A DNA stretch of 38,867 nucleotides. Origin: Nitrospirota bacterium. GTDB lineage: Bacteria; Nitrospirota; Thermodesulfovibrionia; Thermodesulfovibrionales; UBA6898. Both the position numbers and the translations under genes were made by a program. Shown one piece after another: positions 2,573 to 38,867 of this stretch. The DNA is taken from positions 1 to 38,867 of the forward strand of contig JAJZPM010000035.1 of NCBI GenBank assembly GCA_021811105.1. Direction: 5' to 3'. Under the pieces are notes generated by a model. It saw only the letters and a list, made by a program, of their open reading frames with translations. It was not told where the DNA came from and made no database searches. Each line of letters begins with the position of its first letter. Within the stretch, counting starts at the first letter, position 1.

Positions 2573-5074
2573 GAAAGAAAGAAGACCTTAAGAAAAAGGG
2601 ATTGAGACGCCCGTTGAGGATTGACTTGTACTCTTCTACTATGAAAGAAAGAAGACCTTAAGAAAAAGGGATTGAGACCCTCCGTAAACCTCTATGCCGT
2701 GCCGGTCAGTAGAAAGAAAGAAGACCTTAAGAAAAAGGGATTGAGACGCTGCAGTTCGGAAAAATATGTCTGTTTTCATGATGAAAGAAAGAAGACCTTA
2801 AGAAAAAGGGATTGAGACCTCCATGTCGGGGTTGTATTTCCTCCTCCACTGTGTGGAAAGAAAGAAGACCTTAAGAAAAAGGGATTGAGACAGACGTGGC
2901 GCTACCACCACGTCTCCCGAGGTCAGAGAAAGAAAGAAGACCTTAAGAAAAAGGGATTGAGACTTTCACAGGTAGGAAGTTTCCGTGCTGTGAACGAAAG
3001 AAAGAAGACCTTAAGAAAAAGGGATTGAGACACCACCTGCTTTTGTTCTTTCCCGCTGTCAGAAAGAAAGAAGACCTTAAGAAAAAGGGATTGAGACGAG
3101 CCTTGCCTGAAGCGGGAAGTAGAGGCGTTTACGAAAGAAAGAAGACCTTAAGAAAAAGGGATTGAGACGGCACTATCAGGCAGCGACATCCATAGGGCAT
3201 GCGAAAGAAAGAAGACCTTAAGAAAAAGGGATTGAGACTCCTCCAGCACGGCAATCTCGTCTGCGGTGAGAAAGAAAGAAGACCTTAAGAAAAAGGGATT
3301 GAGACTGTGGCCGCACTCCCATTGTATCGGCTAGACCCTGAAAGAAAGAAGACCTTAAGAAAAAGGGATTGAGACCGGTGTTTCGTCAGAGGTGGTATTG
3401 TCTTTTGAAAGAAAGAAGACCTTAAGAAAAAGGGATTGAGACTGGACTCCCGTGAGAGATATCCTCACGGGGATGAAAGAAAGAAGACCTTAAGAAAAAG
3501 GGATTGAGACCTATTGGTTTGAGGCCTTTTCCTTTGAGTATAGGAAAGAAAGAAGACCTTAAGAAAAAGGGATTGAGACCGTGTTTGCCATTCTGTGGTA
3601 ACTCGAAAATTCCTGGAAAGAAAGAAGACCTTAAGAAAAAGGGATTGAGACTGGCGTATTCAACATCGTTTACTCCTGCAGACTGAGAAAGAAAGAAGAC
3701 CTTAAGAAAAAGGGATTGAGACACTCACCCCAAAAACGGATAGGGGCATGATTGCTGAAAGAAAGAAGACCTTAAGAAAAAGGGATTGAGACTCGGCCCT
3801 TCGGGAGGGCCATTTTCGCCTCCTCGATGGAAAGAAAGAAGACCTTAAGAAAAAGGGATTGAGACGGCATCCCAAAGATACTCAACGTAATCATCGGAAA
3901 GAAAGAAGACCTTAAGAAAAAGGGATTGAGACCGTAATCACCGGCGACGTTCCATCTCCGGTGATCGAAAGAAAGAAGACCTTAAGAAAAAGGGATTGAG
4001 ACGGTGAGCCTGCTCTGCACGAGGACTACGTTGTCGGCGAAAGAAAGAAGACCTTAAGAAAAAGGGATTGAGACACAACTCGTCGACAGCCGTGGTACCG
4101 GCGATTTTCCGAAAGAAAGAAGACCTTAAGAAAAAGGGATTGAGACGGTGGTGTTTCATCCATTGATGTCCAGCCCACAGGGCGAAAGAAAGAAGACCTT
4201 AAGAAAAAGGGATTGAGACTTCTGCGGGTGATTGCCGTACTTGTCGCAGGCGGTGGAAAGAAAGAAGACCTTAAGAAAAAGGGATTGAGACTCGGTTCCT
4301 GGCACAAGGTTCCGAAAAACTGAAAGGGAAAGAAAGAAGACCTTAAGAAAAAGGGATTGAGACGCCATATGCCCTATCAACGTAGTTCTCTATCTTGAAG
4401 GAAAGAAAGAAGACCTTAAGAAAAAGGGATTGAGACAGGGTCGCATTCCCGCTGACGTACTGGATGGTCGCAGAAAGAAAGAAGACCTTAAGAAAAAGGG
4501 ATTGAGACTTTCCCCTCCAAGGGAGGGGTTGTAAATGTGACTCAGAAAGAAAGAAGACCTTAAGAAAAAGGGATTGAGACATGTGCGGCAGGCCGCGGAG
4601 ATCCACTGGGTCGAGGAAAGAAAGAAGACCTTAAGAAAAAGGGATTGAGACTTGGCGATGAGGGTGGGTTTCATGCTGCCACCTCAGAAAGAAAGAAGAC
4701 CTTAAGAAAAAGGGATTGAGACAGGAAGGCTGGCTGCCGGGCGTCGAGGACGGTATTGGAAAGAAAGAAGACCTTAAGAAAAAGGGATTGAGACTTCTCA
4801 GTGTTGACCACCATTTTTTCCTCCTGTCTGAGGAAAGAAAGAAGACCTTAAGAAAAAGGGATTGAGACTCCCCGGACTCGACCACCATCTGGCCGCTGCG
4901 GATTGAAAGAAAGAAGACCTTAAGAAAAAGGGATTGAGACTTCTACTTTCGCCCGCTTCATTGCCCTGGCTGCGTCTCCGGAAAGAAAGAAGACCTTAAG
5001 AAAAAGGGATTGAGACGAAGGCGCGTTTATTCATGGGAGGAGGCCTCTTTAGAAAGAAAGAAGACCTTAAGAAA
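2573..5074 (+). CRISPR. CRISPR array: 35 full 36-nt repeats, one degenerate terminal repeat, 35 spacers
   Basis: The repeat begins GAAAGAAAGAAGACC and ends AAAGGGATTGAGAC, 36 nt in all; full copies start at 2573, 2643, 2712 and so on to 4981 and look identical by eye. The last copy (5052-5074) keeps only the first 23 nt, marking the old, leader-distal end. Spacers are 30-40 nt. The repeat is purine-rich on the plus strand, has only a weak CCTT/AAGG stem, and ends ATTGAGAC, resembling the 8-nt 5' tag (ATTGAAAC type) of many type III and I-B repeats. Plus-strand transcription is therefore likely. No Cas6, Cascade, Cmr/Csm or other effector gene is in the window; they may lie left of position 1 or elsewhere. 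Several spacers carry inverted repeats or translation-start signals. Many minus-strand open frames here are artefacts of the repeat. Confidence 0.98.
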
Positions 5075-17733: not shown

Positions 17734-18891
17734 ATGGATGAGTTTCACAGGGAGAGCGATATTTCAGGTGATGCCCTCGACAAGATGCTCGCAGGGGGCG
17801 TCTCGCGAAGAAATTTCTTGAAGTTTTGTACGGGTGTTGCGGTCGCAATGGGCCTTCCCTTCGGAATGGGGGCAAAGATCGCAGAGGCGGTTATGAACCC
17901 TAAACGTCCGCCGGTCATCTGGCTTTCCGCGCAGGAATGTACGGGGTGCACGGAATCGCTTTTGCGGACAAACCATCCTACCGTGGAGAAACTGATACTC
18001 GAACTCGTATCGCTCGACTATCACGAAACATTGAATGCAGGCGCCGGCAGGCAGGCAGAGGAGGCCCTCAGGAAGTCCATGCAGGAGAACAAGGGCAAGT
18101 ACATTTTGGTTGTCGACGGGTCAATCCCAGTGAAGGACGGGGGGATTTACTGTAAGATAGGCGGGAAGACCGCACTTTCTCTCCTCGAAGAGCAGGGCTC
18201 TCAGGCTGCTGCGGTTATCGCGATCGGGTCCTGCGCATCCTGGGGTGGCGTCCCATCCGCAGATCCCAACCCGACCGGAGCAACACCGGTGCATGAAGTA
18301 TTCAGGAGCAAGGGCATTAAGACGCCTGTGGTAAATATCCCAGGTTGTCCGCCTAATGGGTATAACTTCCTCTCAACAGTTCTCTACTTCCTCACTTTCA
18401 AAAAACTCCCGGAACTCGATGACCAGGGGAGACCAAAGTTTGCCTACGGTAGAATCATACATGAAAACTGCGAACGCCGGCCGCATTTTGACGCGGGAAG
18501 GTTCGCCATGGAGTTCGGAGATGAAGGACATAGAAAGGGCTATTGCCTGTACAAACTCGGCTGCAAGGGGCCCGAAACCTTCAATAACTGTCCCACGTTG
18601 CTCTTTAATGACGTCGGTTCCGGTGCGTGGCCCGTGGGAACGGGTCATCCATGTTTCGGATGCTCTGAAAAAGGGGTCGGATTTACCGCGCCGCTCCACT
18701 CGCCTGCCCGGCCGCTCTATATTACGCCGCCTTCCTTCTTCACCGAAATATATCCGGGCAAGGAAGAGGTATCCTCGGGCACGAAGGCCCTGGCTGCAGG
18801 AGTCGCGGGTGCGGCAATAGGAGCTGCGGGGGCAGCAATAGTAGCCGGACTCGGGAAAAAGGGCGAAGACAAAAAAGACAAGGAGGAGTAG
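17734..18891 (+). CDS. hybO: Hyd1 [NiFe] hydrogenase small subunit (HybO-like)
   Basis: 385 residues. The Tat signal SRRNFLKFCTGVAVAMGLP (about 24-42) directs export of the folded heterodimer. The iron-sulfur ligands are complete: proximal cluster C69 and C72 in QECTGCTESLL, GSCASWGG and IPGCPPNGYN; distal/medial ligands in [30 protein letters not shown] and GHPCFGCSEKG. A C-terminal Ala/Gly-rich hydrophobic helix (about 350-372) anchors it in the membrane, followed by a charged tail. It passes electrons from the NiFe site in HybC to HybA/HybB. The sequence and the gene order small-hybA-hybB-large-protease-hypC mirror E. coli hydrogenase 2 (group 1c). GAGGAGGTG precedes the ATG. Confidence 0.95.
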   Translation: MDEFHRESDISGDALDKMLAGGVSRRNFLKFCTGVAVAMGLPFGMGAKIAEAVMNPKRPPVIWLSAQECTGCTESLLRTNHPTVEKLILELVSLDYHETLNAGAGRQAEEALRKSMQENKGKYILVVDGSIPVKDGGIYCKIGGKTALSLLEEQGSQAAAVIAIGSCASWGGVPSADPNPTGATPVHEVFRSKGIKTPVVNIPGCPPNGYNFLSTVLYFLTFKKLPELDDQGRPKFAYGRIIHENCERRPHFDAGRFAMEFGDEGHRKGYCLYKLGCKGPETFNNCPTLLFNDVGSGAWPVGTGHPCFGCSEKGVGFTAPLHSPARPLYITPPSFFTEIYPGKEEVSSGTKALAAGVAGAAIGAAGAAIVAGLGKKGEDKKDKEE

Positions 18892-18894
18892 GCC

Positions 18895-19899
18895 ATGAGC
18901 ATGAACAGGCGAGATTTTCTCAAGACAGCGGCTGCGGGAAGCGGCATGCTGCTTGCCTCACAGGCAATGCCTGCCGGCGCCGCCATGCCGAAGGAACTTC
19001 CGCCGGAAGCGGTCGGCATCCTCTATGACGCGACCCTCTGTATCGGCTGCAAGTCCTGCATGGTCAACTGCAAGAAGTACAATAGTGAACCGGAGGGGGC
19101 ACTTCATTCCTCGCGCCGGATTTCACCGCCGTACGAATTTTCGACACCTGAAAGAATATGGGATGACCCCCATGATCTTTCAGGAAAAACCCTTAACATT
19201 ATCAAGGCGTATAAAAATGGAACCGGTGCGACAAAGGACGTTGCCGAAAACGGCTACTCATTCGTCAAACAGCACTGCCTGCACTGTATTACGCCGGCAT
19301 GCGTTTCGGTTTGTCCTGTCGGTGCTCTGAGGAAGGACCCGTCTAACGGCGTCGTATACTACGTCGAAAACAGATGCATCGGCTGCCGTTACTGCCTTCT
19401 TGCCTGCCCGTTCAGGATCCCGAGGTACGAGTGGGATACTGCATTTCCGCAGGTGAGAAAATGCCAGCTCTGCCGTCACCGTTACGCTGAGGGCAAGTAT
19501 TCCGCCTGCTGCGAATTCTGCCCGACGGGCGCCTCTATCTTCGGCAAGGTGGCGGACCTTCGCAAGGAGGCCGAGAAGCGCCTGACTCTCAAAACGGGTG
19601 ACCAGTATGATTTTCCTCTCCAGACAGTCGGCTCGAAGGACAAGAGCAGGCGCACTGTCTCTAAATACATCAACCACATCTACGGCATGAAAGAGGCCGG
19701 CGGCACCCAGTATATGCTTCTGGCAGGCGTGCCTTTTGAACTCCTGGGGTTCGACAAGAATATCAGGAATGATGAATTTTTCCCCGACTTTACATGGGCC
19801 TATATCTCGAAGATACCGGCCGTCATCGCGACGGTGCTGATCGGCGGCGCCGCAACATGGGCGTTCACAAAGGGAAAAAACAAAGATAAGGAGAAATAG
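18895..19899 (+). CDS. hybA: Periplasmic four-cluster ferredoxin of Hyd1 (HybA-like)
   Basis: 334 residues. The Tat signal MNRRDFLKTAAAGSGMLL leads to four cysteine groups for 4Fe-4S clusters: CIGCKSCMVNCKKY, CLHCITPACVSVCPVGAL, CIGCRYCLLACPF and CQLCRH with CCEFCPTGAS. A C-terminal hydrophobic segment (VIATVLIGGAATWAF) anchors it on the outer membrane face. It relays electrons from HybO to the quinone-reactive HybB. It starts 3 nt after the hybO stop with AGGAGTAGG as ribosome binding site. Assignment is firm by motifs, neighbours and length. Confidence 0.94.
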   Translation: MSMNRRDFLKTAAAGSGMLLASQAMPAGAAMPKELPPEAVGILYDATLCIGCKSCMVNCKKYNSEPEGALHSSRRISPPYEFSTPERIWDDPHDLSGKTLNIIKAYKNGTGATKDVAENGYSFVKQHCLHCITPACVSVCPVGALRKDPSNGVVYYVENRCIGCRYCLLACPFRIPRYEWDTAFPQVRKCQLCRHRYAEGKYSACCEFCPTGASIFGKVADLRKEAEKRLTLKTGDQYDFPLQTVGSKDKSRRTVSKYINHIYGMKEAGGTQYMLLAGVPFELLGFDKNIRNDEFFPDFTWAYISKIPAVIATVLIGGAATWAFTKGKNKDKEK

Positions 19900-19904
19900 C
19901 GGCT

Positions 19905-21035
19905 ATGAACCAGAAAGATATAAAGATGATGACTCCCATGACCTTGGGATTGATCCTCGTTATGGCTGCCGCGGGCGTTGTCGTGGTGTACCGGCTGCTG
20001 TTCGGTCTCGGCGCGGCGACGCACCTCAGTGACATCTGGCCCTGGGGTTTCTGGATAGGCATGGATGTCCTCGGAGGGGTGGCTATGGCTGCGGGCGGTT
20101 TCATTATCGCCGGAGCGGTCTATATATTGAACTGGAAAAAGTACAAGGTCATCGTAAGGCCGTCGATCCTGAATGCTTTTTTCGGGTATGTTCTTGCGGC
20201 CACCTCGATCACTCTTGATATCGGCGTTCCCTGGCGCATCTGGCATCCCATTGTCATGTGGCAGATAAACTCGATCATGTTCATAGTGGCGATCCATGTA
20301 GTCCTCTATACATCGACGCTCGCCACGGAGTCGAGCCCTATGGTGTTCGAGAAGCTGAAAATGACCGGCGCGTATCGGGCGGTAAGCAAGATCATGGTCC
20401 CCATCGTGCTCTTCGGCGTGCTCCTTTCGACGCTCCACCAGTCTTCTCTCGGTGCGGTATACCTGATAGTTCCCACAAAGTTGTCTCCGCTATGGTACAG
20501 CAAGAGTCTCCCATACATGTTCCTCATCTCGGCGGTGCTGATGGGCCTGTCGATGGTCAGCTTCGAGACGATCCTCAGCTCGAGGATCTTCAAACACAAG
20601 GTCCCGATGGATGTAATTACCGGCCTTGCGCGGGGTTCGCTGATTGTCGCAGCTATCTATTTCGCGATCAAGGTCTGGCTCCTCGTATCAGGACCCGGTA
20701 TCGGTGCGGCCTTTGACGGCAGCTTTACGGCGAACATGTATCTTCTGGAGATGGCCATAGGCGTTGTGCTGCCGCTGGCGCTTCTTTCCGTTAAGGACTT
20801 CAGGACGCGGATCAGCAGCATCTTTACTGTGAATATCCTGGTTATCATCGGCACCCTTCTTAACAGGCTGAACGTCGGCATTTTCGGTTTGGCGGAATAT
20901 GCCAGCAAGTTCGGGGTGGACTACTTCCCGTCGGCGATGGAGTTTATTCTCACTGCCGGTATGGTGGCCTTTGCGTTCTTCGGATTCAAGGTTTCCGCGA
21001 AATATCTGAATCTGTTCCCGGAGACAGAGCACTGA
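19905..21035 (+). CDS. hybB: Hyd1 membrane quinone-reactive subunit (HybB, NrfD/PsrC family)
   Basis: 376 residues and about ten hydrophobic segments of the NrfD/PsrC type. Characteristic parts include the WPWGFWIGMDVLGGVAMAAGGFIIAG start, GVPWRIWHP, STLHQSSLGAVYLI and the final AFFGFKVSAKYL helix. It has no heme; it exchanges electrons and protons with menaquinone. It lies 5 nt after hybA. Its presence means Hyd1 is a quinone-coupled enzyme of the HybOABC design, which can in principle run in both directions with membrane energy. Family assignment is firm. Confidence 0.93.
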   Translation: MNQKDIKMMTPMTLGLILVMAAAGVVVVYRLLFGLGAATHLSDIWPWGFWIGMDVLGGVAMAAGGFIIAGAVYILNWKKYKVIVRPSILNAFFGYVLAATSITLDIGVPWRIWHPIVMWQINSIMFIVAIHVVLYTSTLATESSPMVFEKLKMTGAYRAVSKIMVPIVLFGVLLSTLHQSSLGAVYLIVPTKLSPLWYSKSLPYMFLISAVLMGLSMVSFETILSSRIFKHKVPMDVITGLARGSLIVAAIYFAIKVWLLVSGPGIGAAFDGSFTANMYLLEMAIGVVLPLALLSVKDFRTRISSIFTVNILVIIGTLLNRLNVGIFGLAEYASKFGVDYFPSAMEFILTAGMVAFAFFGFKVSAKYLNLFPETEH

Positions 21036-21090
21036 ATTTGTGCCGTCGCACTGACGAATCAGAAAAATAAAACTTAGTGAGGAGGTTCAA

Positions 21091-22791
21091 ATGGCTAAAA
21101 GGATAACAGTAGATCCCATAACCAGGATAGAGGGACACCTGCGGATAGACTGCGAAGTGGACGGAGGAAAGGTCACTCATGCGTGGTCATCGGGACAGAT
21201 GTGGCGCGGCATCGAAGTCATCCTCAAGGGAAGAGACCCGAGGGATGCCTGGTTATTCACGCAGCGCTTCTGCGGCGTTTGAACTTCGGTCCACGCACTG
21301 GTTTCAGTGCGTACGGTCGAAAACGCACTCGGGATGGAAGTACCCCTGAATGCGCAATACATCAGGAATATGATCATGGGCGCACATGCGACTCATGACC
21401 ACATCGTTCATTTCTATCAGCTTGCGGCACTCGACTGGGTGGACATCGTCTCCGCCCTCAAGGCGGACGCAAGAGCGGTGGCGAACCTCGGACAGAAACT
21501 CTCGTCCTGGAGCGGCAACAGCTACAGCGAGATTAAGGCCTCCCAGGACAAGCTGAAGACCTTTGTGGGGTCGGGACAACTGGGGGTGTATGCGAGCGGC
21601 TACTGGGGACACCCCGCAATGAAGCTCTCGCCCGAAGTGAATATGCTTGCGGCACATCATTATCTTCAGGCGCTCGAGTACCAAAGGGAAGTAAACAAGG
21701 TGGTTGCCATCCTCGGATCCAAAACCCCCCATATACAGAATGTCGCCGTAGGCGGCGTCGCCAACGCGATCAATCTCGACAGCCCGGAGACCCTGAACAT
21801 GGAGCGGCTCTACTATATCAAGACGCTGATAGACAAGGTGGGGGATTTTGTCGAGAACGTGCTGCTCGTAGACACCGCCGCCGTCGGCGCCTTTTACGCC
21901 GACTGGACCCAGTACGGTTCGGGGGTTACCAATTATCTTTCTGTGCCGGACATGCCGATGGATACGAAAGGGACGGTATTCGCTTTGCCCGGCGGATATA
22001 TCCCAGGCGGCGATATAGGTGAATTTGTATCCTTCAAGAGCTACCAGGATCCCTTCTTCAGGGACAACGTCAAAGAGAGCATCAAGCATTCCTGGTACGA
22101 CGGCGACTGGGACCGTCATCCGTGGGAAGAGGACACGGTTCCCAAGTATACCGATTTTCAGGACAAGGGGAAGTATTCCTGGGTAAAATCCCCGACGTTC
22201 AAGGGCAAACCCGCCCAGGTGGGGCCGCTTGCAAACGTCCTTTGCATGTATGCCGCCGGTCATGCTCCCACGAAGAAATACGTGGATCGAACGCTCGCCC
22301 TGGTGAGCTCTCTGGCAGGTGCCAAGGTCGGCATCGCTGCGCTCCATTCGACCATAGGCCGGATAGCGGCACGTTCTGTGCGTTGTGCCGTGCTCTTCGA
22401 CACATTGAAGGGCCAGTGGCAGGCGCTTGTCGACAACATATCGAAGGGGGATGTCAGGACATTCAACCGTCCCACGTTTCCTGCAGGAGTGCAGAAGGGT
22501 TTTGGTTTTCACGAAGCCCCCAGGGGTGCCCTTTCACACTGGATTGTGATCGAGGATGGCCGGATCAAGAACTACCAGGCCGTCGTGCCGTCCACGTGGA
22601 ATGCCGGCCCGCGGAATAGTGAAGACGCCCCCGGCCCCTATGAGGCATCGCTGGTCGGCAACCCGGTGGCGGACCCGGAAAGGCCTCTCGAGGTTTTGAG
22701 GACCGTGCACTCTTTTGACCCCTGCCTCGCCTGCGCCATCCATATGGTGGATCGGCAGAATAGGGAGATAGTGAAGGTCAGGGCTGTATGA
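21091..22791 (+). CDS. hybC: Hyd1 hydrogenase large subunit with an in-frame TGA (probable selenocysteine) in the L1 motif
   Basis: 566 residues if the TGA at 21280-21282 is read through as residue 64. The frame before it ([15 protein letters not shown] to RFCGV) and after it ([18 protein letters not shown]) is one continuous group 1 large subunit. The TGA stands for the second Cys of the R-x-C-G-V-C motif, the bridging ligand of Ni and Fe. The C-terminal L2 motif is ordinary (DPC545-L-A-C548-A-I-H551). A 15-residue tail after H551 should be removed by a HybD-type protease. A stem-loop 10 nt after the TGA looks like a bacterial SECIS. TGA acts as a normal stop in other genes here, such as cas1. 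A premature stop is the alternative, but the downstream frame is fully conserved. AGGAGG precedes the ATG. Confidence 0.9.
21293..21312 (+). promoter_or_regulatory. Candidate bacterial SECIS stem-loop for the hybC TGA
   Basis: ACGCACTG (21293-21300) pairs perfectly with CAGTGCGT (21305-21312) around the loop GTTT. The loop starts with G and begins 18 nt after the TGA. As I recall the bacterial SECIS consensus (a G in the first two loop positions, loop 16-37 nt after UGA), it fits. It lies in coding sequence for HALVSV. Confidence 0.7.
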
Positions 22792-22831
22792 AAGTGGTGA
22801 ATCACGCATGCGTATGTCACAAGGGGGCTGA

Positions 22832-23350
22832 TTGAGGGTCCTCGTTCTGGGCATTGGTAACGTTCTGATGGGTGATGACAGCATCGGCGTCAGGGTGGTC
22901 GAAGAGATGGAGAGGAGATTCCGCCTTCCGGAGTGGATCGAGTTGCTCGATGGCGGCACATCCGGCATCGAGCTTCTCTCTTACGTTCGGGACAGGGACT
23001 GTCTGATAATCATCGATGCCATAAAAAGCGGCTTTCCACCCGGTACTGTAGTCAGGGTCGAAGGGAGTGATATCCCTGCAAAGTTTATGACTAGGATTTC
23101 TCCTCATCAACTGGGCCTGTCGGACATGCTTGCCGCTGCCTCTCTCACGGGCGATCTGCCCGACAATATGGTTTTATTCGGCATCGAGCCGAAGCGGGTT
23201 GCGCTTGGCTTAGAACTTTCCGAAGAGGTGAGGGCGAATTTCGACAAATTAGTGGAGACAGTTCTGGCGGAGCTGCGGAGCATGGGCGCCTCTCCGGAGC
23301 CGGTGGAAGGGGTCGGCCGATCACGAAGTTTCTGGGAAAACGTGGGGTAA
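22832..23350 (+). CDS. hybD: Hydrogenase maturation protease (HybD/HyaD family)
   Basis: 172 residues from the TTG at 22832, which has GGGGG about 7 nt upstream and gives the family start RVLVLGIGNVLMGDDSIGVRVVEEM. Nickel-sensing ligands are the acidic residue after GVRVVE (the HyaD-type Glu), Asp in LLDGGTSG, and the His in ISPHQLGLSDML. It clips the C-terminal tail of a large subunit after nickel insertion. It sits 40 nt behind hybC, its obvious substrate. Because the equivalent gene of the second operon is decayed, it may serve both. The last 20 residues include SPEPVEG, a peptide often produced where scattered DNA repeats run into genes. Confidence 0.92.
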   Translation: MRVLVLGIGNVLMGDDSIGVRVVEEMERRFRLPEWIELLDGGTSGIELLSYVRDRDCLIIIDAIKSGFPPGTVVRVEGSDIPAKFMTRISPHQLGLSDMLAAASLTGDLPDNMVLFGIEPKRVALGLELSEEVRANFDKLVETVLAELRSMGASPEPVEGVGRSRSFWENVG

Positions 23351-23354
23351 AGGT

Positions 23355-23621
23355 ATGTGTCTTGCGATCCCATCGAGAATCGTCCGGATAGATGACCTCA
23401 GGGCAATAGTCGACGTCTACGGGGCGAGAAGAGAGATAAACCTCATGCTCCTAAATGACAATGCCGAGATTGGCGACTATGTCCTTGTCCACGCGGGCTT
23501 TGCGATCCAGAAGGTTGAACGGGAGGCTGCACAAGATGCGTTGAGAGTCATCTCCACGATTATCGAGGAAGTTGAACGAGAAGACCGTTCCGAGGGGTCG
23601 TCGGACATTCATTCGGGCTGA
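23355..23621 (+). CDS. hypC: Hydrogenase assembly chaperone HypC/HybG
   Basis: 88 residues with the diagnostic N terminus MCLAIPSRIVRID, whose Cys2 (after Met removal, the N-terminal Cys) binds the Fe(CN)2CO precursor together with HypD and delivers it to the large subunit. The core VDVYGARREINLMLL and GDYVLVHAGFAIQKV matches the family. It starts 4 nt after hybD. The other hyp genes (A, B, D, E, F) are not in the window. The C-terminal 20 residues are acidic and family-atypical but not alarming. Confidence 0.93.
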   Translation: MCLAIPSRIVRIDDLRAIVDVYGARREINLMLLNDNAEIGDYVLVHAGFAIQKVEREAAQDALRVISTIIEEVEREDRSEGSSDIHSG

Positions 23622-23896: not shown

Positions 23897-25003
23897 ATGC
23901 GCGACGAAGATGAAATAGTCCGCGAATCAGCCGGAGGCCCTTATCGACAGATAGTGGCACGCGGCGTTTCGAGGAGGGATTTTCTGAAATTCTGTTCTGC
24001 GATGGCGGCGGTCCTCGGACTGTCAGGAACATTCGCCGGCAAGATCGCCGAGGCGATCGAAAAGGCCGAAAGGCCGATCCTGGTATGGCTTGAGTTTCAG
24101 GACTGCGCAGGAAACACCGAGGCCCTTCTCAGGGCAACGAAGCCTACCATTGCCGAGATCGTGCTCGATGTGCTTTCAGTCGATTACCACGAGACGATCA
24201 TGGCGCCTGCGGGGAAGCAGGCCGAAAAATCCCTCGAGGATGTGGTGAAGAACCACAAGGGGAAGTATATCGCCTGCGTGGAAGGTTCAATACCTTTAAA
24301 GGACAACGGCGTTTATTGCTGCGTTGGAGGAAGGAGTGCGATAGACATAGCGAAAGAGGTCTGCGGCAATGCCCTTGCCACAATCGCCGTGGGCACATGC
24401 GCCACCTCCGGCGGGATCCCCGCGGCAGCGCCGAATCCTACGGGCGCTATTGGCGTGAAGCAGGCCCTTCCCAATGTCACGGTCCTGAACCTTACCGGCT
24501 GCCCGATGAACGTCGAGAACCTCACCGCTACAGTGGTCCATTTTCTGACCTTCGGCGGCCTTCCCGCGACCGACAGTATCGGCAGGCCCTTATTCGCATA
24601 TGGAGAACGGATCCACGACCACTGCGAGAGGCGGGCGCATTATGACGCGGGCCAGTTCGTGAAACAGTGGGGCGACGAAGGCCACCGGCAGGGATGGTGC
24701 CTCTACGAGATGGGATGCAAGGGACCGGAGACATTCGGAAACTGCCCCGTCGTCAAATACAATGAAGGAACAAGCTGGCCGGTGCAGGCCGGACACGGCT
24801 GCATCGGGTGTTTTCAGCCCGAGTTCTGGGACAAAATGACACCTTTCTACCGGAGGCTGCCGAAAGTGCCGGGATTCGGAGTTGAGGTTACGGCGGACAA
24901 GATCGGGGCAGGAGTGGCGGCGGTCGCGGCGGTCGGAGTGGCGGCGCATAGAATAGCGCGGGCGATACGAGGTAAACAGGACAAGAAAGAAGATACTGAA
25001 TAG
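23897..25003 (+). CDS. Hyd2 [NiFe] hydrogenase small subunit with an altered proximal-cluster motif
   Basis: 368 residues. Tat signal [18 protein letters not shown] (about 25-42), C-terminal hydrophobic anchor ([18 protein letters not shown]) and a charged tail. Other ligands are present: [49 protein letters not shown] and GHGCIGCFQ. The first motif reads QDC70-A-G-N73-TEALL, so the second Cys of the proximal-cluster CxxC is Asn, where Hyd1 has C72. The proximal cluster may have a non-cysteine ligand or a different makeup. It is paired with a large subunit whose L1 motif has two TGA codons. AGGTGC/GGAGG lies upstream of the ATG. Some hydrogenase subgroups may share the Asn; I cannot check. 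Confidence 0.93.
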
Positions 25004-25023
25004 AAAAAAGAAGGAGAGCTAAG

Positions 25024-26733
25024 ATGACAAAGATCGCGATTGACCCGATCACGAGAATCGAGGGGCATCTGAGGATAGAGGCCCAGGTGGATGGCGGCAA
25101 AGTATCCGACGCCTGGTCTTCGAGCACAATGTTCAGGGGCATAGAGATCGTGCTGAAAGGCAGAGACCCCAGGGACGCCTGGGCATTCACGCAGCGGATA
25201 TGAGGCGTCTGAACAACGGTTCACGCCACCAGCTCCGTGAGAGCTGTAGAGAATGCGCTCGGCATCACTATCCCGGATAACGCAAGGCTGATCAGAAATC
25301 TTATCAGCGGGATCCAGTATATTCAGGACCATGTAATACATTTTTACCATCTGCATGCGCTCGACTGGGTGGATATCGTCAGTGCGCTCAAGGCCGACCC
25401 CGCCAGGACATCAGCCCTTGCACAGTCGATCTCGGACTGGCCGATATCGAGCACCACATACTTCAGGGGGGTCCAGAACAAACTGAAGACGTTCGTGGAA
25501 AGCGGTCAGCTCGGCATATTTGCAAATGCCTACTGGGGACATCCCGCCTACAAACTTCCTCCTGAGGCCAACCTCATGGCAGCAGCCCATTACCTTGAGG
25601 CCCTTGACTGGCAGAGGGACGTAATACGAATACAGGCACTGCTCGGGGCGAAGAACCCTCATGCCCAGACGTATCTGGTCGGCGGCATGGCGATCCCGAT
25701 CGATGTCAACAGTGAAAACGCCTTGAATGACGGCAGCTTTGCCTTCATATCGGAAGCCTCGAGGCGGGCGAAGACATTTGTGGAACAGGTGCTCATCCCG
25801 GATATCCTTGCGGTCGCCTCTTTCTACAAAGAATGGGCGGGATACGGTTCCGGCATTGGAAATTATCTTGCCTACGGCGAGTTTCCAAATGACAATGTAT
25901 CCAACACTGAAAATCTCTGGCTTCCCCGGGGGATAATACTGAACAGGGACCTCGGGAAGGTACACCCCGTCGATCAGACGAAGATCGAGGAATACGTAAC
26001 CCATTCCTGGTATGTTTACGGCGAGGGCGACTCTGCTTCGAAACATCCCTGGAACGGCGTTACCGATTACAAGTATACGGGGCCTCAGCCGCCGTATGAG
26101 TTCCTTGATACCGACAGGAAGTACAGCTGGCTCAAGGCGCCGCGCTACGAGAATATGCCGATGGAGGTGGGGCCTCTCGCAAGAATGCTTGTTGCCTATG
26201 CATCGGGACATAAGAGGATAAAGGAGGTGGTCGACTCTGTCCTGAAGAAACTGTCACTCGGGCCGGAGGCGCTTTTCTCCACGCTTGGAAGGGTCGCTGC
26301 GCGGGGCATCGAGACGCTGGTAACCGCTGAGATGATGTCCGTCTGGCTCGGCCAAGTGATCGCGAATGTGAAGCGGGGTGACCTGAAGATCCACGAGGGG
26401 AGTATGTGGGAGCCTTCAAAATGGCCCAAAGAGGCCAAGGGATACGGTCTCTATGAAGCGCCGCGCGGCGCCCTAGGTCACTGGGTGAAGATCAGGGACC
26501 AAAAGATCGAAAACTACCAGTGCGTGGTGCCGAGCACATGGAACGGATCGCCGAGGGACGCTGCGGGGCAGCGCGGCCCTTATGAGGCGGCACTGATCGG
26601 CACGCCTGTTGCTGACCAAACAAAGCCGGTCGAGATACTGAGGACCATCCATTCCTTTGACCCCTGTATGGCCTGTGCGGTACATGTGCTCGACGCAAAC
26701 GGGAAGAAAGTGACGAGGATAAGAGTTGTGTAA
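25024..26733 (+). CDS. Hyd2 hydrogenase large subunit with two in-frame TGA codons (UxxU) in the L1 motif
   Basis: 569 residues if TGA at 25201-25203 (residue 60) and 25210-25212 (residue 63) are read through. The frame runs from [17 protein letters not shown] through [31 protein letters not shown] to the end without other stops. Both TGA codons replace exactly the two L1 cysteines that bind nickel (one terminal, one bridging). L2 is ordinary: DPC548-M-A-C551-A-V-H554, followed by a 15-residue tail for proteolytic removal. A stem-loop at 25230-25246 could serve both codons. Selenocysteine is the natural reading, since random nonsense mutations would not hit only these two codons. AGGAG precedes the ATG at 25024, 20 nt after the small subunit. 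Its own maturation protease is decayed. Confidence 0.9.
25230..25246 (+). promoter_or_regulatory. Candidate bacterial SECIS stem-loop for the Hyd2 TGA pair
   Basis: CAGCTC (25230-25235) pairs with GAGCTG (25241-25246) around the loop CGTGA, which has G in its second position. The loop starts 23 nt after the second TGA and 32 nt after the first; both fall within the distance I recall for bacterial SECIS elements. The stem is shorter than in Hyd1. Confidence 0.55.
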
Positions 26734-26745
26734 AAGGAGACCGTC

Positions 26746-27399
26746 ATGGAAAAAAGGATATACGTATGGGAAGCGCCGGTACGTGTTACTCACTGGATAA
26801 GCGTTTTTTGTCTTGTCACGCTTGCCCTCACCGGCGTATATATCGGTAACCCCTTTATTACGGCGACCTCCGCAGATCAGTATATAATGGGGTGGGTGAG
26901 GTTTGTTCATTTCGTTGCAGCCTATATTTTCGTGGTAAACCTTGCGGTCCGCATCTACTGGTCTTTCGCCGGAAACAAATATGCCACCTGGAAAGCGCTC
27001 TTCCCGTTCAGCCAGGAGCGGATAATAACGCTTTTCAGACAGATGTCGTTTTACGCCTTAATCAGCACGAAGCCTCCCCAAGAGATAGGTCACACGCCTC
27101 TCGGGGGGATTGTCTATTTCCTCATACTCGTCCTCTGTGGTATCTCCGCGATAACCGGCTTTGCGCTCTTTTCGCTCTACAATCCCGCCGGACCGATGCA
27201 CATTCTCTTCGGCTGGGTCTTTTCTCTTGCAGCGATAGCTACGGTGAGGCTCATACACCATCTCATCATGTGGTTCCTTATTTACTTCGTTATTGTGCAT
27301 ATCTATGTCGTGCTGTTCCTGGATTCGGTCGAAAAGAACGGCTTGCTGAGCAGTATATTCGACGGATACAAGTTTGTTGAGGAGGAAAAGACTAATTGA
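26746..27399 (+). CDS. Hyd2 membrane cytochrome b subunit (HydC/HyaC family)
   Basis: A 217-residue di-heme b-type cytochrome that passes electrons from the small subunit to menaquinone. Motifs are YVWEAPVRVTHWISVF with the first heme His, RFVHFVAAYIFVVNLAVRIYWSFAGNKYA in helix 2, GHTPLGGIVYFLILVLCGISAITGF, and ATVRLIHHLIMWFLIYFVIVHIYVVLF with the C-terminal His ligands. Four to five membrane helices. AGGAGACCGTC precedes the ATG, 12 nt after the large subunit. Unlike Hyd1, this operon uses cytochrome b rather than HybA/HybB, so the two enzymes enter the quinone pool by different routes. Confidence 0.94.
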   Translation: MEKRIYVWEAPVRVTHWISVFCLVTLALTGVYIGNPFITATSADQYIMGWVRFVHFVAAYIFVVNLAVRIYWSFAGNKYATWKALFPFSQERIITLFRQMSFYALISTKPPQEIGHTPLGGIVYFLILVLCGISAITGFALFSLYNPAGPMHILFGWVFSLAAIATVRLIHHLIMWFLIYFVIVHIYVVLFLDSVEKNGLLSSIFDGYKFVEEEKTN

Positions 27400-27641
27400 G
27401 GACAGCAGTTCTCGGAGTCGGCAATATTCTTCTCAGCGACGAGGGCGTCGGGGTCCGGGCGATACAGCCGGAAAAACTTGGAACAGGTCTCAGTCTCTCG
27501 GATGTCGTTTCGGCCCATTTCAATGATCTTGTCCCTGCGGTGATCACAAATCTAGCGGAATGGAGGATAGAAGCGAGAGAGACCTGTTGTTCCTGTCCCG
27601 CAGGGTTGACAAAAAAGTTCGAGCGACCTTACATTACCTGA
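27396..27641 (+). pseudogene. Remnant of a hydrogenase maturation protease (internal deletion)
   Basis: An 81-codon open frame starting at TTG 27396, overlapping the cytochrome b stop. The first 23 codons match the protease N terminus (TAVLGVGNILLSDEGVGVRAI), and the next words, QPEKLGTGLSLSDVV, match the family C-terminal GI-x-P-E-x-L-E-x-G-L-x-L-S region. About 90-100 central residues are missing, including the metal-binding Asp and the His of the HQ motif. After that the tail (CCSCPAGLTKKF) is unlike the family. The frame stayed open, so it could still be translated, but protease activity looks impossible. The junction lies near 27463. Full-length relatives are about 150-170 residues. Confidence 0.8.
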
Positions 27642-33821: not shown

Positions 33822-34021
33822 ACACGGGCCATCGAAAAATTGAATGTCCTGTGAGGACAGAATTTTTGCTGCGCTCGCTCTTTCACCCTACCGCCTTTTG
33901 TATTTTGCATACCTGCACTTTTTTCTTTCACTATTTTTCACTATTTTCTTGACATGAAAATAATACTTATGGTTCAATTCTTCTCGGGTATCATCAAACT
34001 GCGGTGGAAAGGGGACATGTA

Positions 34022-37000
34022 ATGGGAGGGGTTGCCTTAGTCAATCATTCTTCACGATTGACTCAAAGGATATCAAAAGCGATTTCTTTTCTGCTTATCC
34101 TCTTAAGCATCCTCTTTTTTTCATACAATTCATTTGCTGACGAGGACGACCACTCGGGCAAACAGCGCCCCCCGGGACCTCCTCCTGGAAGCAGAGGAAA
34201 ACCAACTGAACCGACCTCACCCTTAATTGGGACACAGGAGGTAGTCAAAGTAAGCGCACAACTCTCCGCTGGTACCGGCGCAACCGTCTCGACATTGGGC
34301 AATTCCGGTGCGGCAGGCGCAAGCATACCTATAGAAGTTCCTCCAGGCAGAAACGGCATCGCACCTAATCTCACCCTTTCATATAACTCCTCAAAAGGCA
34401 ACGGATGGATAGGTGTTGGATGGGATATTAGTCTTGGTGCGATATCGCGGTCCACAAAAAGAGGCGTGGCTTACAACAGTAACGATTATGTTTTCTCCCT
34501 TGGCTTATCCACGACTGAGCTTATTGCGAGAAACGACTGGGGAGGCAACTATTACGGCGCAAAAATAGAAGGCCCTTTCACAAAATATTACTTCAGCCAT
34601 TCCAGCGGAGGCTGGGAAGTAACGACTAAAGATGGAACGAAGTACTATTACGGCACAACAGCCGCCTCAAGACAGGACAATGCTTACGGGACATTCAAGT
34701 GGTGCCTTGATAAAGTCCAGGACTTAAACGGCAACTACATGACCGTGACATACTTGAAAGACAACGGCGATATATACCTTTACAGGATAGACTATACGGG
34801 AAACACCCATGGGCTCAGCGCGACAAACTATGTGCAATTTTATTACGAAGGAAGATCTGATATTGTGCCAATGTACACTACAAATTCGCCTGTCCAGACT
34901 ATATACCGTCTGAAAACTATAGACGTCGTAGCTAACGGAAACAGGGCCCGTACATACCGGCTTAATTACACTCAGGGTCCAGTAATAGGGCGAACTCTTC
35001 TTCAAAGTATCCAGCAGTTCGGAGATAACGCTAATATCGATGCCTCCGGTAACGTTCTAAGTGGAAGTTCCCTCCCTCTAACTTCTTTTGAGTGGAGCCA
35101 ACCACAGTCCATACAGTCTTCCGACAATCCCAATACGGGACAGGGCGCTAACGCAATAGCTTGGCTAACAGGAGATTTTGACGGCGACGGGAAGACAGAT
35201 TTAGTACAAATATTTGACGATGGCAGTCGCGGGGCATTACTTTATAAGTCAAACGGCACCGGCTACGCATCGCCGACTTATAGCCATCTTATCAACGTGA
35301 CGGGTGGCGCTTCAGGGGAAACTTGGCTGACAGGCGATGTCGACGGGGACGGAAAAACAGACTTGATTTACGCCTATTGGGATGCTTTCGGCGGATACCA
35401 ATATCTGAAGGTCTTTCTTTCGAATGGCACAAACTTTACTTATACAAACCCAGGCAGCAACTACGAACGGCAGGGACAGGTAGCCCTTACTCACTGGTTG
35501 ACTGCCGACGTGGATGGTGACGGCAAAATAGATTTAGTGAGTGTGGGATCATCGCTGCAGGTTTCCAAACCTTCCCCATCAGGACAGTATTATTCACCGA
35601 CCTGGAGCGGCGGATCGAATTACTATACCACCGATGATACCTGGCTGACCGGCGACTTCGACGGCAACGGAAAGACAGATATCCTTGCGATATATGAAGA
35701 CCCTTCAGGCGTCTTTTGGTATACCGTGTTTCTATCAGATGGTAATGGCTATTCATATCCGCCGAATTGCGATAATAGTTGGGTCTGGAGCACGGGCACG
35801 AATGCCCTCATCACTGCCGATGTCAACGGGGACGGCAAATCTGACTTGGTCAGGGCAAACTCTGGAATCGTTACGGCGTACCTATGGGGTGGGAGCTGTT
35901 TCCTTTTTGGCAGCCCCTGGAATTCTTCGGTATCTTCTTACTGGGGACAGTGGACGGCGGGAGACATCAGTGGGGACGGAATGATAGATCTCTTCCAATG
36001 GAACCCCTATGGCGGGAACCAGGTTTCAGAATACGTCTCAAACGGTACAACGTATAGCACCGCCGCGGTAATAAGCAATATTGCACCTGATTTTTCCTCT
36101 GGAGGCGGCAACCTCCTGCCCGCCGATGTCAATGGGGAAGGGAAAACCGGACTTGTACGCCCCTACGTCAAGACCGATGGCACCCTCGGCATAAGCGCTT
36201 ACAGAACAGATGGCGAACCGGCAGACCTTCTTACAAAGATAACCAGAGGCAATGCTTACACAACCATTGCTTATGCGCCCTCATCGCAGTACAGCAATAC
36301 TTTGATGCCTTTTGTCGTCCAGACTGTCTCTTCTATCACCGTCTATGACGGAAACGGCATTACCTCCCCGACGTATTACTCGTATTCAGGGGGGCTTTTT
36401 GATTATGCAAGCAGGGAATTCAGGGGATTCAGTGTCGTAACGCAAACAAATCCCGACGGTACATATATTGAGTCGGGATACCTTCAGGATGATATATATA
36501 AGGGCCTGCTATGGGCACAAGTGGTCTATAACAGTACCGGGTTTATATATACGGCAGCTGTCAATACCTACCAGGCGGCTTCATATTCTGGTGCGAGCTT
36601 TCCATATCTGAATAAGACAGACAATTATCTATGCGATGGAATCGCAACCCTAAACGATCTTGCGGCACAGGCGCAGAATCAGGCCACTTCGCCCTGCAAG
36701 TGGTCTCAGACCGCGTTCGTTTACGATAGCTATGGCAACATTACTCAACGGTTTTCTTACGGTGATATGGGATTCTCCGGAGATGAGAAGTATGAGTATA
36801 TTGACTACGCATACGATACAAATAATTGGATAGTCTCCACCCCCTCCAGCACTTACACTTATGATTATACTTGGACCCTGAAATCGCGGACTTGGTTTGA
36901 CTACTGGCCAGGAACGAGCAATCTCAAGACAAAGACTTTTGGCTGGAATGTCAGCAATAAGCTCGATGCGAACAATCCTAAAATCGGCTATGAGTACGAT

Positions 37001-38867
37001 CAATATGGCTACGGCAACCTGTGGAAAGTAACTGACGCCCGATCTTGCACGACCACTACGACCTATGACACTTCTACCTATACTTATCCGAATACAATAA
37101 CGAACTGCCTCGGCCATCAGGCAATTAAGACTTACGATTACAGGTTCGGCAAGGTTGCCAGCGAGACAGACCCCAATCTTAATGTTACCAGTTACCTTTT
37201 TGACCCCTTCGGCAGAGTAAACAATTCATCGAACCAAAATAATGGGACCAACGCCTTCAAATGGAAGGAAACGTACTATGACGGCCTTGGAAGGACGACA
37301 AAGGTACGGACTGCCGGGCCTGACAACAAGGTTATTGTCCAAGAGACGAAGTATAACAGCATGGGCAGGGTATACCAGACATCTTTGCCTTATTTCGAAA
37401 ACATTGAATCCCCCCGCTGGTCAACTAACTATTACGACGCTGTTGGAAGAGTGACGCAGACAACAAACCCGGATGGCACATATCTAACGGCAAGTTATTT
37501 GTTGGGACAGACTACGATGATAGATGCCGACGGACATCAAAGAGTGGAGACAAGGGACGTATACGGACGTCTGGTTAACGTGCAGGAATACACAGGGTGC
37601 GAATATGCAAGGTGCGGGGTTCCGAATCAGCCGTTTGCCCTTTACGCTACGACGACATACGTATACGATGCATTGGGAAATCTCACGGATGTCTGGGACG
37701 CAAGGAGCAATCATACGCAAATCCACTATGACTCCCTTTCCAGAAAAGACTGGATGAGCGATCCTGATATGGGCTACTGGCAGTATGGCTATGACGCAAA
37801 CGGCAACCTCACCTCACAAAGTGACGCAAAGAGTCAGAATATACAGTTTCACTACGATGAAATCAACAGAATCCAGTGGAAGCAATACATGAGCTGCGCC
37901 TCGTGTACAGACGTTCACCACACCTATGATGAAATTTGGTCCACAAATTCTAAAGGGAGACTCACAACCGTTACGGACGCTTCCGGCATGCAGAAATTTT
38001 ATTATGACAAGCTTGGACGCGTGACAACGACGATAAAGACTGTGGATAGCATCAACTATACGATTGAGACCTCCTATGACAGCCTCGGAAGAACGGAGAG
38101 CATCACCTATCCTGACGGTGAAATAGTTTATTACACTTATGACGACGGCGGGAATCTCACAAACGTTTCAAATATCATAAACTTCTCGGGCTATTCGGCA
38201 TTTAACGCTCTTGGACAGCCCACTTATACAGCCTATGGAAACGGCGTACTTACGACGTATCAGTACTATCCATCAAATAACCGTCTCTACTCCATCACAA
38301 CCAGCAGTTCCGCAGGGCTTCAGAATATCGCATACGGATATGATAATGCCGGGAACGTGACCGGGATAACGGATTATCTTGACGGATCGCGGACACAAAC
38401 ATTTGTTTATGATGAACTGAATAGGATAAAGACGGCGACGAGCACCGGCTATGGGACGATAAGCTATCAATATGACCAAATCGGCAACATCACTTCCAAC
38501 TCGCGGGTTGGCACCTACGCTTACTGGAAAGACTACTTTGGAACAAAGCCTCATGCCGTCTATATAGCTGGCTCAAATACATATCAATATGACCCCAACG
38601 GCAATATGTACAGCGGGGGTGGAAGGTCTATTACTTACGATTTCGACAACAGGCCGGTAAGCATGACAAAGAACGGGACGATTACGCTCGTTTATGATTA
38701 TGCAGGGCGGCGGGTAAAGAAGAATTCTACCGTTTATATCGGGAAGCTTTACGAATGCACTGGCGGGGTTTGTACGAAGCATATTTTTGCGGGGTCCAGC
38801 CGCGTGGCGTCGAAGACTGGAACAACTATCAGCTATTATCATACAGACCATCTCGGAAGCAGTTCCG
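34022..38867 (+). CDS. Giant exported SpvB / FG-GAP / RHS-repeat protein, 3' end outside the window
   Basis: At least 1615 residues, open to the last base. AAAGGGG precedes the ATG by 7 nt. A long signal peptide ends near A39 (SFLLILLSILFFSYNSFA). A proline-rich linker and an SpvB/TcdB-N-like domain follow (about 70-330: GASIPIEVPPGRNGIAPNLTLSY, SKGNGWIGVGWDISLGAISR). Seven FG-GAP/VCBS calcium motifs lie at about 384-712 (GDFDGDGKTDLV, GDVDGDGKTDLI, ADVDGDGKIDLV and variants). YD/RHS repeats then run from about 890 (YDGLGRTTKV, YDANGNLTS, YDELNRIKT) to the core end YYHTDHLGSS. In this family a variable, often toxic, C-terminal tip follows that motif; it would start just past the window. The DNA looks more AT-rich than its neighbours, suggesting transfer. 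Confidence 0.92.
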   Translation, partial: MGGVALVNHSSRLTQRISKAISFLLILLSILFFSYNSFADEDDHSGKQRPPGPPPGSRGKPTEPTSPLIGTQEVVKVSAQLSAGTGATVSTLGNSGAAGASIPIEVPPGRNGIAPNLTLSYNSSKGNGWIGVGWDISLGAISRSTKRGVAYNSNDYVFSLGLSTTELIARNDWGGNYYGAKIEGPFTKYYFSHSSGGWEVTTKDGTKYYYGTTAASRQDNAYGTFKWCLDKVQDLNGNYMTVTYLKDNGDIYLYRIDYTGNTHGLSATNYVQFYYEGRSDIVPMYTTNSPVQTIYRLKTIDVVANGNRARTYRLNYTQGPVIGRTLLQSIQQFGDNANIDASGNVLSGSSLPLTSFEWSQPQSIQSSDNPNTGQGANAIAWLTGDFDGDGKTDLVQIFDDGSRGALLYKSNGTGYASPTYSHLINVTGGASGETWLTGDVDGDGKTDLIYAYWDAFGGYQYLKVFLSNGTNFTYTNPGSNYERQGQVALTHWLTADVDGDGKIDLVSVGSSLQVSKPSPSGQYYSPTWSGGSNYYTTDDTWLTGDFDGNGKTDILAIYEDPSGVFWYTVFLSDGNGYSYPPNCDNSWVWSTGTNALITADVNGDGKSDLVRANSGIVTAYLWGGSCFLFGSPWNSSVSSYWGQWTAGDISGDGMIDLFQWNPYGGNQVSEYVSNGTTYSTAAVISNIAPDFSSGGGNLLPADVNGEGKTGLVRPYVKTDGTLGISAYRTDGEPADLLTKITRGNAYTTIAYAPSSQYSNTLMPFVVQTVSSITVYDGNGITSPTYYSYSGGLFDYASREFRGFSVVTQTNPDGTYIESGYLQDDIYKGLLWAQVVYNSTGFIYTAAVNTYQAASYSGASFPYLNKTDNYLCDGIATLNDLAAQAQNQATSPCKWSQTAFVYDSYGNITQRFSYGDMGFSGDEKYEYIDYAYDTNNWIVSTPSSTYTYDYTWTLKSRTWFDYWPGTSNLKTKTFGWNVSNKLDANNPKIGYEYDQYGYGNLWKVTDARSCTTTTTYDTSTYTYPNTITNCLGHQAIKTYDYRFGKVASETDPNLNVTSYLFDPFGRVNNSSNQNNGTNAFKWKETYYDGLGRTTKVRTAGPDNKVIVQETKYNSMGRVYQTSLPYFENIESPRWSTNYYDAVGRVTQTTNPDGTYLTASYLLGQTTMIDADGHQRVETRDVYGRLVNVQEYTGCEYARCGVPNQPFALYATTTYVYDALGNLTDVWDARSNHTQIHYDSLSRKDWMSDPDMGYWQYGYDANGNLTSQSDAKSQNIQFHYDEINRIQWKQYMSCASCTDVHHTYDEIWSTNSKGRLTTVTDASGMQKFYYDKLGRVTTTIKTVDSINYTIETSYDSLGRTESITYPDGEIVYYTYDDGGNLTNVSNIINFSGYSAFNALGQPTYTAYGNGVLTTYQYYPSNNRLYSITTSSSAGLQNIAYGYDNAGNVTGITDYLDGSRTQTFVYDELNRIKTATSTGYGTISYQYDQIGNITSNSRVGTYAYWKDYFGTKPHAVYIAGSNTYQYDPNGNMYSGGGRSITYDFDNRPVSMTKNGTITLVYDYAGRRVKKNSTVYIGKLYECTGGVCTKHIFAGSSRVASKTGTTISYYHTDHLGSSS

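Follow-up and report, generated by a model that had tools for sequence, protein, structure and literature searches.

In [NiFe] hydrogenases, the second Cys of the L1 motif bridges Ni and Fe, and the first is a terminal ligand. Two of the four ligand Cys bridge in the NiFe site, according to an excerpted review (PMC9961374). The hydrogenases known to contain selenocysteine (Sec) swap one ligand, in L2, and their oxygen resistance and catalytic bias have been explained by that single position. These [NiFeSe] hydrogenases (the Desulfovibrio HysAB type and the archaeal VhuU/FrhA) carry Sec as a ligand of the NiFe site and need Sec machinery and a SECIS element. Selenoprotein reviews describe hydrogenases by the motif UxxC, which we take to be that of L2. 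The alpha subunits appear in this form in excerpts of prokaryotic selenoprotein reviews from 2022 (PMC9312934) and 2026 (PMC13188914, with one Sec), and an excerpted older survey includes the [NiFeSe] large subunit of Desulfovibrio among selenoproteins (PMC1914089). Sec has entered L1 by engineering: E. coli Hyd-2 was given one Sec, via UAG, at Cys61, Cys64, Cys546 (the L2 proton-relay cysteine) or Cys549, and all four single-Sec variants were active in H2 oxidation, below the native level; the excerpted text contains no double L1 variant (PMC11212049). In the open-licence PMC literature searched (as excerpts, with subscription papers outside the scope), no report of natural Sec in L1 was found. 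Single-Sec variants of E. coli Hyd-1 at the same positions are reportedly described in a 2021 PNAS study.

The hydrogenases described here are encoded in a 38,867-nt contig (hereafter the window) of a Nitrospirota genome of 3.94 Mb in 93 contigs. Two clusters, Hyd1 and Hyd2, lie one after the other. Like the [NiFeSe] enzymes they would have Sec as a NiFe ligand; unlike those, which carry one Sec in the C-terminal L2, both have a Cys/Cys L2 and a predicted Sec/Sec (Hyd2) or Cys/Sec (Hyd1) L1. The Hyd2 cluster (23897-27641) holds the following features:

23897..25003, + strand: Hyd2 small subunit, with a Tat signal (TIGR01409 over cut-off), the proximal-cluster motif CAGN as against CxGC, and a Cys pair, VYCC
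25024..26733, + strand: large subunit of the Hyd2 [NiFe] hydrogenase, 569 codons, two of them in-frame TGA; Pfam NiFeSe_Hases (PF00374), 795.7 bits
25201..25203, + strand: first TGA, codon 60, at the first L1 position (corresponds to Cys61 of E. coli Hyd-2)
25210..25212, + strand: second TGA, codon 63, at the second L1 position (corresponds to Cys64 of E. coli Hyd-2)
25230..25246, + strand: predicted Hyd2 SECIS hairpin (CAGCTC, loop CGTGA, GAGCTG), starting 17 nt after the second TGA
26665..26676, + strand: Hyd2 L2 motif, both ligand codons TGT (Cys)
26746..27399, + strand: b-type cytochrome subunit (TIGR02125, 166 bits against a cut-off of 121.5)
27396..27641, + strand: truncated HyaD/HybD-type maturation protease, 81 aa, of which only the first ~24 residues match

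Direct reading of the large-subunit frame bears out the original prediction that its 569 codons are broken only by TGA at 25201 and 25210, both of them L1 ligand codons (R-I-U-G-V-U, or RIUGVU, where U is TGA). The span given for the pair, 25198..25212, was right in its codon content and not in its exact bounds, the codons being 25201-25203 and 25210-25212. L2 is ordinary, as had also been claimed, with TGT at 26665 and 26674. The first L1 position (the Cys61 equivalent) is presumably the terminal Ni ligand, and the second (the Cys64 equivalent) presumably the Ni-Fe bridging ligand. TGA is the genuine stop of 6 of the 18 window genes checked and is therefore not a general sense codon here. The two UGA positions are those of the engineered E. 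coli Hyd-2 variants, from which Hyd2 differs in that the former are man-made and hold a single Sec each (PMC11212049, excerpt). UxxU at L1 appears to be without natural precedent in the open-licence excerpts, where L1 Sec occurs only as engineered E. coli variants. The earlier description of a doubly Sec-ligated geometry as undescribed accordingly holds for nature within that literature and not for designed enzymes, single-Sec variants at the same positions existing in Hyd-2 and Hyd-1.

Full-length homology places the Hyd2 large subunit among the group 1 [NiFe] hydrogenases, though its L1 conforms only when UGA is accepted as coding for a Cys-type ligand. Matches to PDB entries run end to end; residues 60 and 63 align with the L1 Cys pair of the A. 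vinosum hydrogenase (3myr), and the predicted model resembles solved hydrogenases (TM 0.90 to 3myr_B by Foldseek). The AlphaFold model (mean pLDDT 72) backs the fold, with an active site too uncertain for use: it is silent on metal geometry because pLDDT falls below 50 at residues 60-62 and 533-557. E13, R481 and D546, which we take to be the Glu, Arg and Asp known as active-site residues, do not vary in an alignment of 29 homologues that includes both Sec and Cys forms, so that the Sec/Cys change appears confined to the ligands. The residues flanking those ligands (R58, G61, V62 and T64-H67) are likewise invariant in the 29. Downstream of the TGAs, dN/dS was 0.12 against L051 and 0.02 against L056 (synonymous sites were saturated in the other four pairs compared), and purifying selection also acts on the 59 codons upstream.

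Likeness to homologues in Geobacteraceae and Acidobacteria, together with gene order, suggests that Hyd2 is a membrane-bound group-1 hydrogenase of the 1f, or Hya-like, kind. Its genes run small subunit, large subunit, cytochrome b, with a protease that is present but truncated and is longer in relatives (a 152-residue match lies 3' of the large subunit in L051). For group 1f in Geobacter, a role in oxidative-stress defence was reportedly proposed by Tremblay and Lovley in 2012. The same order of small subunit, large subunit, third subunit and protease is found in the group 1f cluster of Deferribacter, and uptake of scarce H2 has been proposed for the group (PMC6896113, excerpt). Since H2 production has been suggested for Geobacter Hya as well (PMC7894505, excerpt), the direction of Hyd2 catalysis could go either way. 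With the Hyd2-cluster protease truncated, Hyd2 maturation may rely on the Hyd1 protease, or may fail.

The small subunits of the Hyd2 family hint at an unusual proximal cluster. The motif CxG[N/D] occurs in 66 of 74 readable loci and CxGC in 8 (in the range L051-L130), so Asn or Asp replaces the usual second Cys of the proximal cluster in most members. In 73 of 75, the position corresponding to the additional Cys of the C. necator enzyme (presumably C120) is also a Cys, as in O2-tolerant enzymes. Both traits accompany Sec and Cys large subunits alike.

The neighbouring Hyd1 cluster (17734-23621) comprises a small subunit, HybA-like and HybB-like proteins, a large subunit, a maturation protease and HypC:

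17734..21035, + strand: Hyd1 small subunit, HybA-like Fe-S protein and HybB-like membrane subunit (profile matches)
21091..22791, + strand: Hyd1 (Hyb-type) large subunit, one in-frame TGA, CxxU in L1
21280..21282, + strand: TGA at the second L1 ligand (R-F-C-G-V-U, or RFCGVU; first L1 codon TGC)
21294..21311, + strand: predicted Hyd1 SECIS hairpin (CGCACTG, loop GTTT, CAGTGCG)
22832..23621, + strand: full-length maturation protease (TIGR00072, 157.8 bits) and HypC-type chaperone (TIGR00074, 80.3 bits)

Here lies the third TGA that the original prediction had placed on a ligand codon of a second gene, at the second L1 position. Hyd1 resembles the group 1c Hyb enzyme (E. coli Hyd-2), to which it aligns end to end (781 bits) and whose HybA- and HybB-like partners it shares; it differs in having UGA at the Cys64 position. 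In the alignment to 6en9, residue 58 corresponds to Cys61 and residue 61 (the TGA) to Cys64, with no gaps upstream, and L2 is Cys/Cys. Hyd1 would thus use a single-Sec version, CxxU, with selenium at the bridging position.

A search of GTDB species genomes yielded 578 confirmed places related to the Hyd2 large subunit, the best 80 of which form a list that favours TGA/TGA (UU), the query for its similarity ranking being itself UU. L1 is readable in all 80: 56 are UU, 23 Cys/Cys (CC), one Cys/TGA (CU) and none TGA/Cys (UC), that is, an in-frame UGA aligns with Cys in homologues, as in bacterial selenoproteins. None of these 80 has another in-frame stop in the matched part, and they span many projects, including a record titled chromosome (L089, CP070632.1). 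Relatives with stops at these positions, for which a search had been proposed, are thus numerous in genome DNA. Direct reading confirmed TGA/TGA at every one of 30 loci, one of which is the window's own, and at five others from a set of 40 stretches chosen to represent every state. The nearest relative among the fetched loci, L051 from a Nitrospirae MAG, has a large subunit 96% identical to that of Hyd2. Cys homologues with 68-71% identity occur in Geobacteraceae, Roseiflexus and Acidobacteria genomes, whose entries within the best 80 of 578 are all CxxC, and Cys-type copies exist further down the ranking in the window's own order (L157-L160).

A draw of 395 genomes across the phylum (with at most three candidates scored per genome) gave 154 with a match at 1e-60. 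Exactly two TGA were present, among the matches listed, in the window genome and in 70 of the 394 others, which are largely the same species as the best-80 loci, the two sets overlapping. At 64% identity or more, the matches listed comprise 69 genomes with two TGA, four with one (G231, G184, G160 and G109) and 17 individual matches with none, several of these in one genus. A scan of viral contigs for the L1 pattern found none. A single TAA or TAG lies inside TGA-free homologue matches in G047, G052, G072, G168 and G489, four of the five in one genus (g14), where the alignment perhaps overran the gene's own stop.

The genome encodes a Sec machinery of its own. SelA (614 bits) and selB (373 bits) lie on one contig about 0.5 kb apart, selD (343 bits) has its own in-frame TGA in CAGUAAK, and a tRNA-Sec carries the UCA anticodon. 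All four genes expected of a genome with bacterial selenoproteins (selA, selB, selC and selD) are therefore present, and absence of the machinery, which had been named as grounds for rejecting the idea, is ruled out. Among the other two-TGA genomes, selA exceeds its curated cut-off in 68 of 70, a count that, like the others here, ignores kinship; the exceptions are G349 (none found, 91% complete) and G275 (a fragment under the cut-off). SelA also passes in 4 of 4 genomes with Hya-like CxxU, and in 20 of 21 with a listed one-TGA match at 50-54% identity (none in G217). The proportion is 27 of 48 in hydrogenase-bearing genomes without TGA among the matches listed, again ignoring kinship and leaving out 10 genomes with unlisted matches, 6 of which have selA. 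This contrast rests on the larger genome set, since the 19 genomes behind the named loci show none (9 of 11 UU, with 5 of 7 in Chloroflexota, versus 6 of 8 CC).

The window genome has a second SelC-like tRNA of 95 nt, read as tRNA-Cys with a GCA anticodon and scoring 62 bits to the tRNA-Sec model:

L002:1497-1591, - strand (contig C10:25953-26043 of the window genome): SelC-like tRNA-Cys, matched by the tRNA-Sec model

It adjoins a YedF/SirA-like and a LysR-like ORF (both named by eye) and fits the selC* tRNA-Cys class, which an excerpted review reports from Nitrospirae and others, certain members carrying a UCA anticodon (PMC7609411).

A hairpin is predicted just downstream of the L1 UGAs in both genes. 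The distance from TGA to loop in bacterial SECIS elements is 16-37 nt, and the distances in Hyd1 (18 nt) and Hyd2 (23 nt from the second TGA, 32 nt from the first) all fall within this range. Folding energies were compared with synonymous re-codings that kept each gene's own codon use, in a 21-nt window picked post hoc, after the sequences had been viewed. There, 69 distinct UU sequences averaged -8.8 kcal/mol versus -3.7 when re-coded (55 of 69 in the lowest 5%), and 30 Cys homologues averaged -4.5 versus -3.5 (3 of 30). The CU set gave a mixed picture (10 of 24 ranked 0.05 or lower), since many Hyb-like copies have their hairpin further upstream. When the whole 42 nt after the second TGA were folded, UU sequences were unexceptional (mean z -0.44, with 2 of 69 ranked at or below 0.05), with Cys homologues at a mean z of -0.85 (8 of 30) and the single-TGA (CU) set at -2.11 (17 of 24 in the lowest 5%). 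The covariation analysis took in 23 distinct UU hairpin windows out of 24, leaving aside a Hyb-like UU copy (L152). In these, 87% of cells were paired, versus 33-55% with a slid partner; 17 double changes were found against a shuffled mean of 6.5; and the covariation score was 0.294 versus 0.139, matched in 0 of 500 shuffles. Two of the five measures, both-side-changed pairs and further pair types, did not beat the shuffles (75 and 486 of 500). The hairpin downstream of the second TGA thus appears conserved and covarying, is mostly absent there in Cys homologues, and is a predicted SECIS element. It stands just 3' of the UGA, as in selenoproteins, by the 21-nt test, the 42-nt test being negative for UU.

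We consider it probable (roughly 0.87) that both L1 UGAs of this group-1 hydrogenase are read as Sec, which would give a NiFe site with a terminal and a bridging selenolate and two L2 Cys. The doubly Sec-ligated site put forward in the original prediction draws support from the codons, their conservation, the machinery and the predicted hairpin; the case is strong at the level of gene and RNA, and Sec in the protein is predicted. Machinery and hairpin alone cannot separate Sec from Cys at a UGA, and the most serious competitor is decoding as Cys, by a selC*-type tRNA-Cys or by tRNA-Sec mis-charged with sulfur, which would leave an ordinary CxxC enzyme with odd codons. The SelC-like tRNA-Cys in this very genome and the UCA anticodon of certain selC* tRNAs (PMC7609411, excerpt) lend this idea some substance. 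The tRNA here carries GCA rather than UCA, however, which makes the reading less likely than Sec, and only one match to the SelB model exceeds the cut-off in the window genome. The conserved SECIS-like hairpins and the near-universal selA of carriers (68 of 70) also fit Sec, and with TGC or TGT serving in the Cys versions (23 of the best 80 loci), the retention of UGA for Cys would have no obvious purpose. We regard Cys decoding as unlikely.

Far less probable still is that translation stops at the first UGA and restarts. A plain-code ORF of 498 residues does begin at GTG 25237, but its product would lack L1 and with it two of the four metal ligands, and neither the purifying selection on the 59 codons before the UGAs nor the invariant surroundings of L1 in 29 homologues would be expected of it. 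Premature stops are common in drafts, this assembly has 93 contigs, and the Hyd2 protease gene is truncated, all of which might point to sequencing error or a decaying gene. The original prediction judged error or decay very unlikely, and we concur: the same two codons recur in 56 of the best 80 loci, in many assemblies including the chromosome-titled record, no other stop interrupts the 80 matched frames, and purifying selection continues downstream, so that conservation refutes this account for the family and leaves it almost no weight. Equally little attaches to the idea that Hyd2 belongs to the established [NiFeSe] (HysA) class, whose Sec lies in L2. The name of the Pfam model (NiFeSe_Hases) invites it, as does a rice-paddy Nitrospirae hydrogenase called [NiFeSe] HysLS in an excerpt that does not give the Sec position (PMC5812927). 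An ordinary [NiFeSe] enzyme is ruled out by the TGT/TGT codons of L2, there being no Sec at the first L2 Cys; the NCBIfam HysA model reaches 422 bits against a cut-off of 780, and none of the 14 models in NCBIfam release 20.0 that match the large subunit exceeds its cut-off.

If the Hyd2 UGAs are indeed read as Sec, the genome's own selA, selB, selD and tRNA-Sec would decode both, aided by the predicted hairpin. A single hairpin would probably serve the pair, SelB with Sec-tRNA reading both UGAs before the ribosome unwinds it. Hyp proteins would then build and insert the NiFe site, after which a HyaD/HybD protease would trim the C-terminus. The heterodimer would presumably be exported via the Tat signal of the small subunit and oxidise H2 in the periplasm, with electrons passing through the b-type cytochrome to quinones. 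Two selenolates may render the metal site less prone to irreversible oxidation, the proton-relay Cys of L2 staying sulfur; the likely gain from selenium at both L1 ligands would be reversibility of oxidation, rather than proton transfer.

With only slightly less confidence than for Hyd2 itself, we propose that [NiFe] hydrogenases whose active site has two selenolate ligands (L1 UxxU) form a natural class, accompanied by a Hyb-like sister form with a single bridging selenium (CxxU), in Thermodesulfovibrionia-type Nitrospirota and some Chloroflexota, with several switches to or from the Cys form that usually involve both residues. A quick maximum-likelihood tree built from 82 large subunits, with the L1 columns masked for 80 loci, requires at least 7 changes of the Sec/Cys label, or at least 8 if three states are scored. 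Within the best 80 of 578 loci, 41 of 42 Nitrospirota-titled entries are UU and one is CU, and the 15 Chloroflexota entries comprise 7 UU and 8 CC, interleaved. A draw of 400 Chloroflexota genomes gave 43 with a match at 1e-150, two of them (including the query's own genome) with two TGA, and two further matches with one. Distinct L1 stretches number 123 (69 UU, 30 CC, 24 CU and no UC), with CU members partly sought out. The Cys64 position carries UGA in 21 of 21 stretches fetched for a one-TGA match at 50-54% identity to Hyd2, and in all 25 fetched single-TGA copies the lone TGA sits at the second L1 position; the bridging position would therefore be the first, or the more important, one for Sec. 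In the Hya-like branch, both L1 residues seem to be selected as a pair. One copy (L152, G261:C63:5870-6364), just 52% identical to Hyd2 and Hyb-like in its SECIS stretch, nevertheless reads RFUGVU, so that the Hyb-like branch may have acquired UxxU as well. Two genomes hold Sec and Cys copies of the same hydrogenase type, CU with CC in G184 (L154 and L164) and UU with CC in G291 (L161 and L162), perhaps as a selenium-dependent switch.

Should Sec decoding in Hyd2 hold, a natural enzyme that spares L2 and replaces both L1 ligands, including the bridging one, would represent a new metal-ligand set in biology and permit a direct test of the role of selenium at each of the four ligand positions, for which the engineered single variants of E. 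coli Hyd-2 offer a ready comparison. Uncultured Nitrospirota commonly carry this hydrogenase, and standard-code annotation would then be truncating its catalytic subunit, so that the H2 metabolism of these organisms is likely under-counted.

Elsewhere in the window, 452-2494 holds a cas2 and a pair of neighbouring cas1-like genes, one of which (the second) matches the Cas1 model only partially; a CRISPR array follows at ~2573-5051, with 36-nt repeats in at least 36 copies. The coding region at 34004-38866, which runs off the window end, specifies a large RHS-repeat protein whose Pfam domains include SpvB-like and TcdB-middle-like ones.
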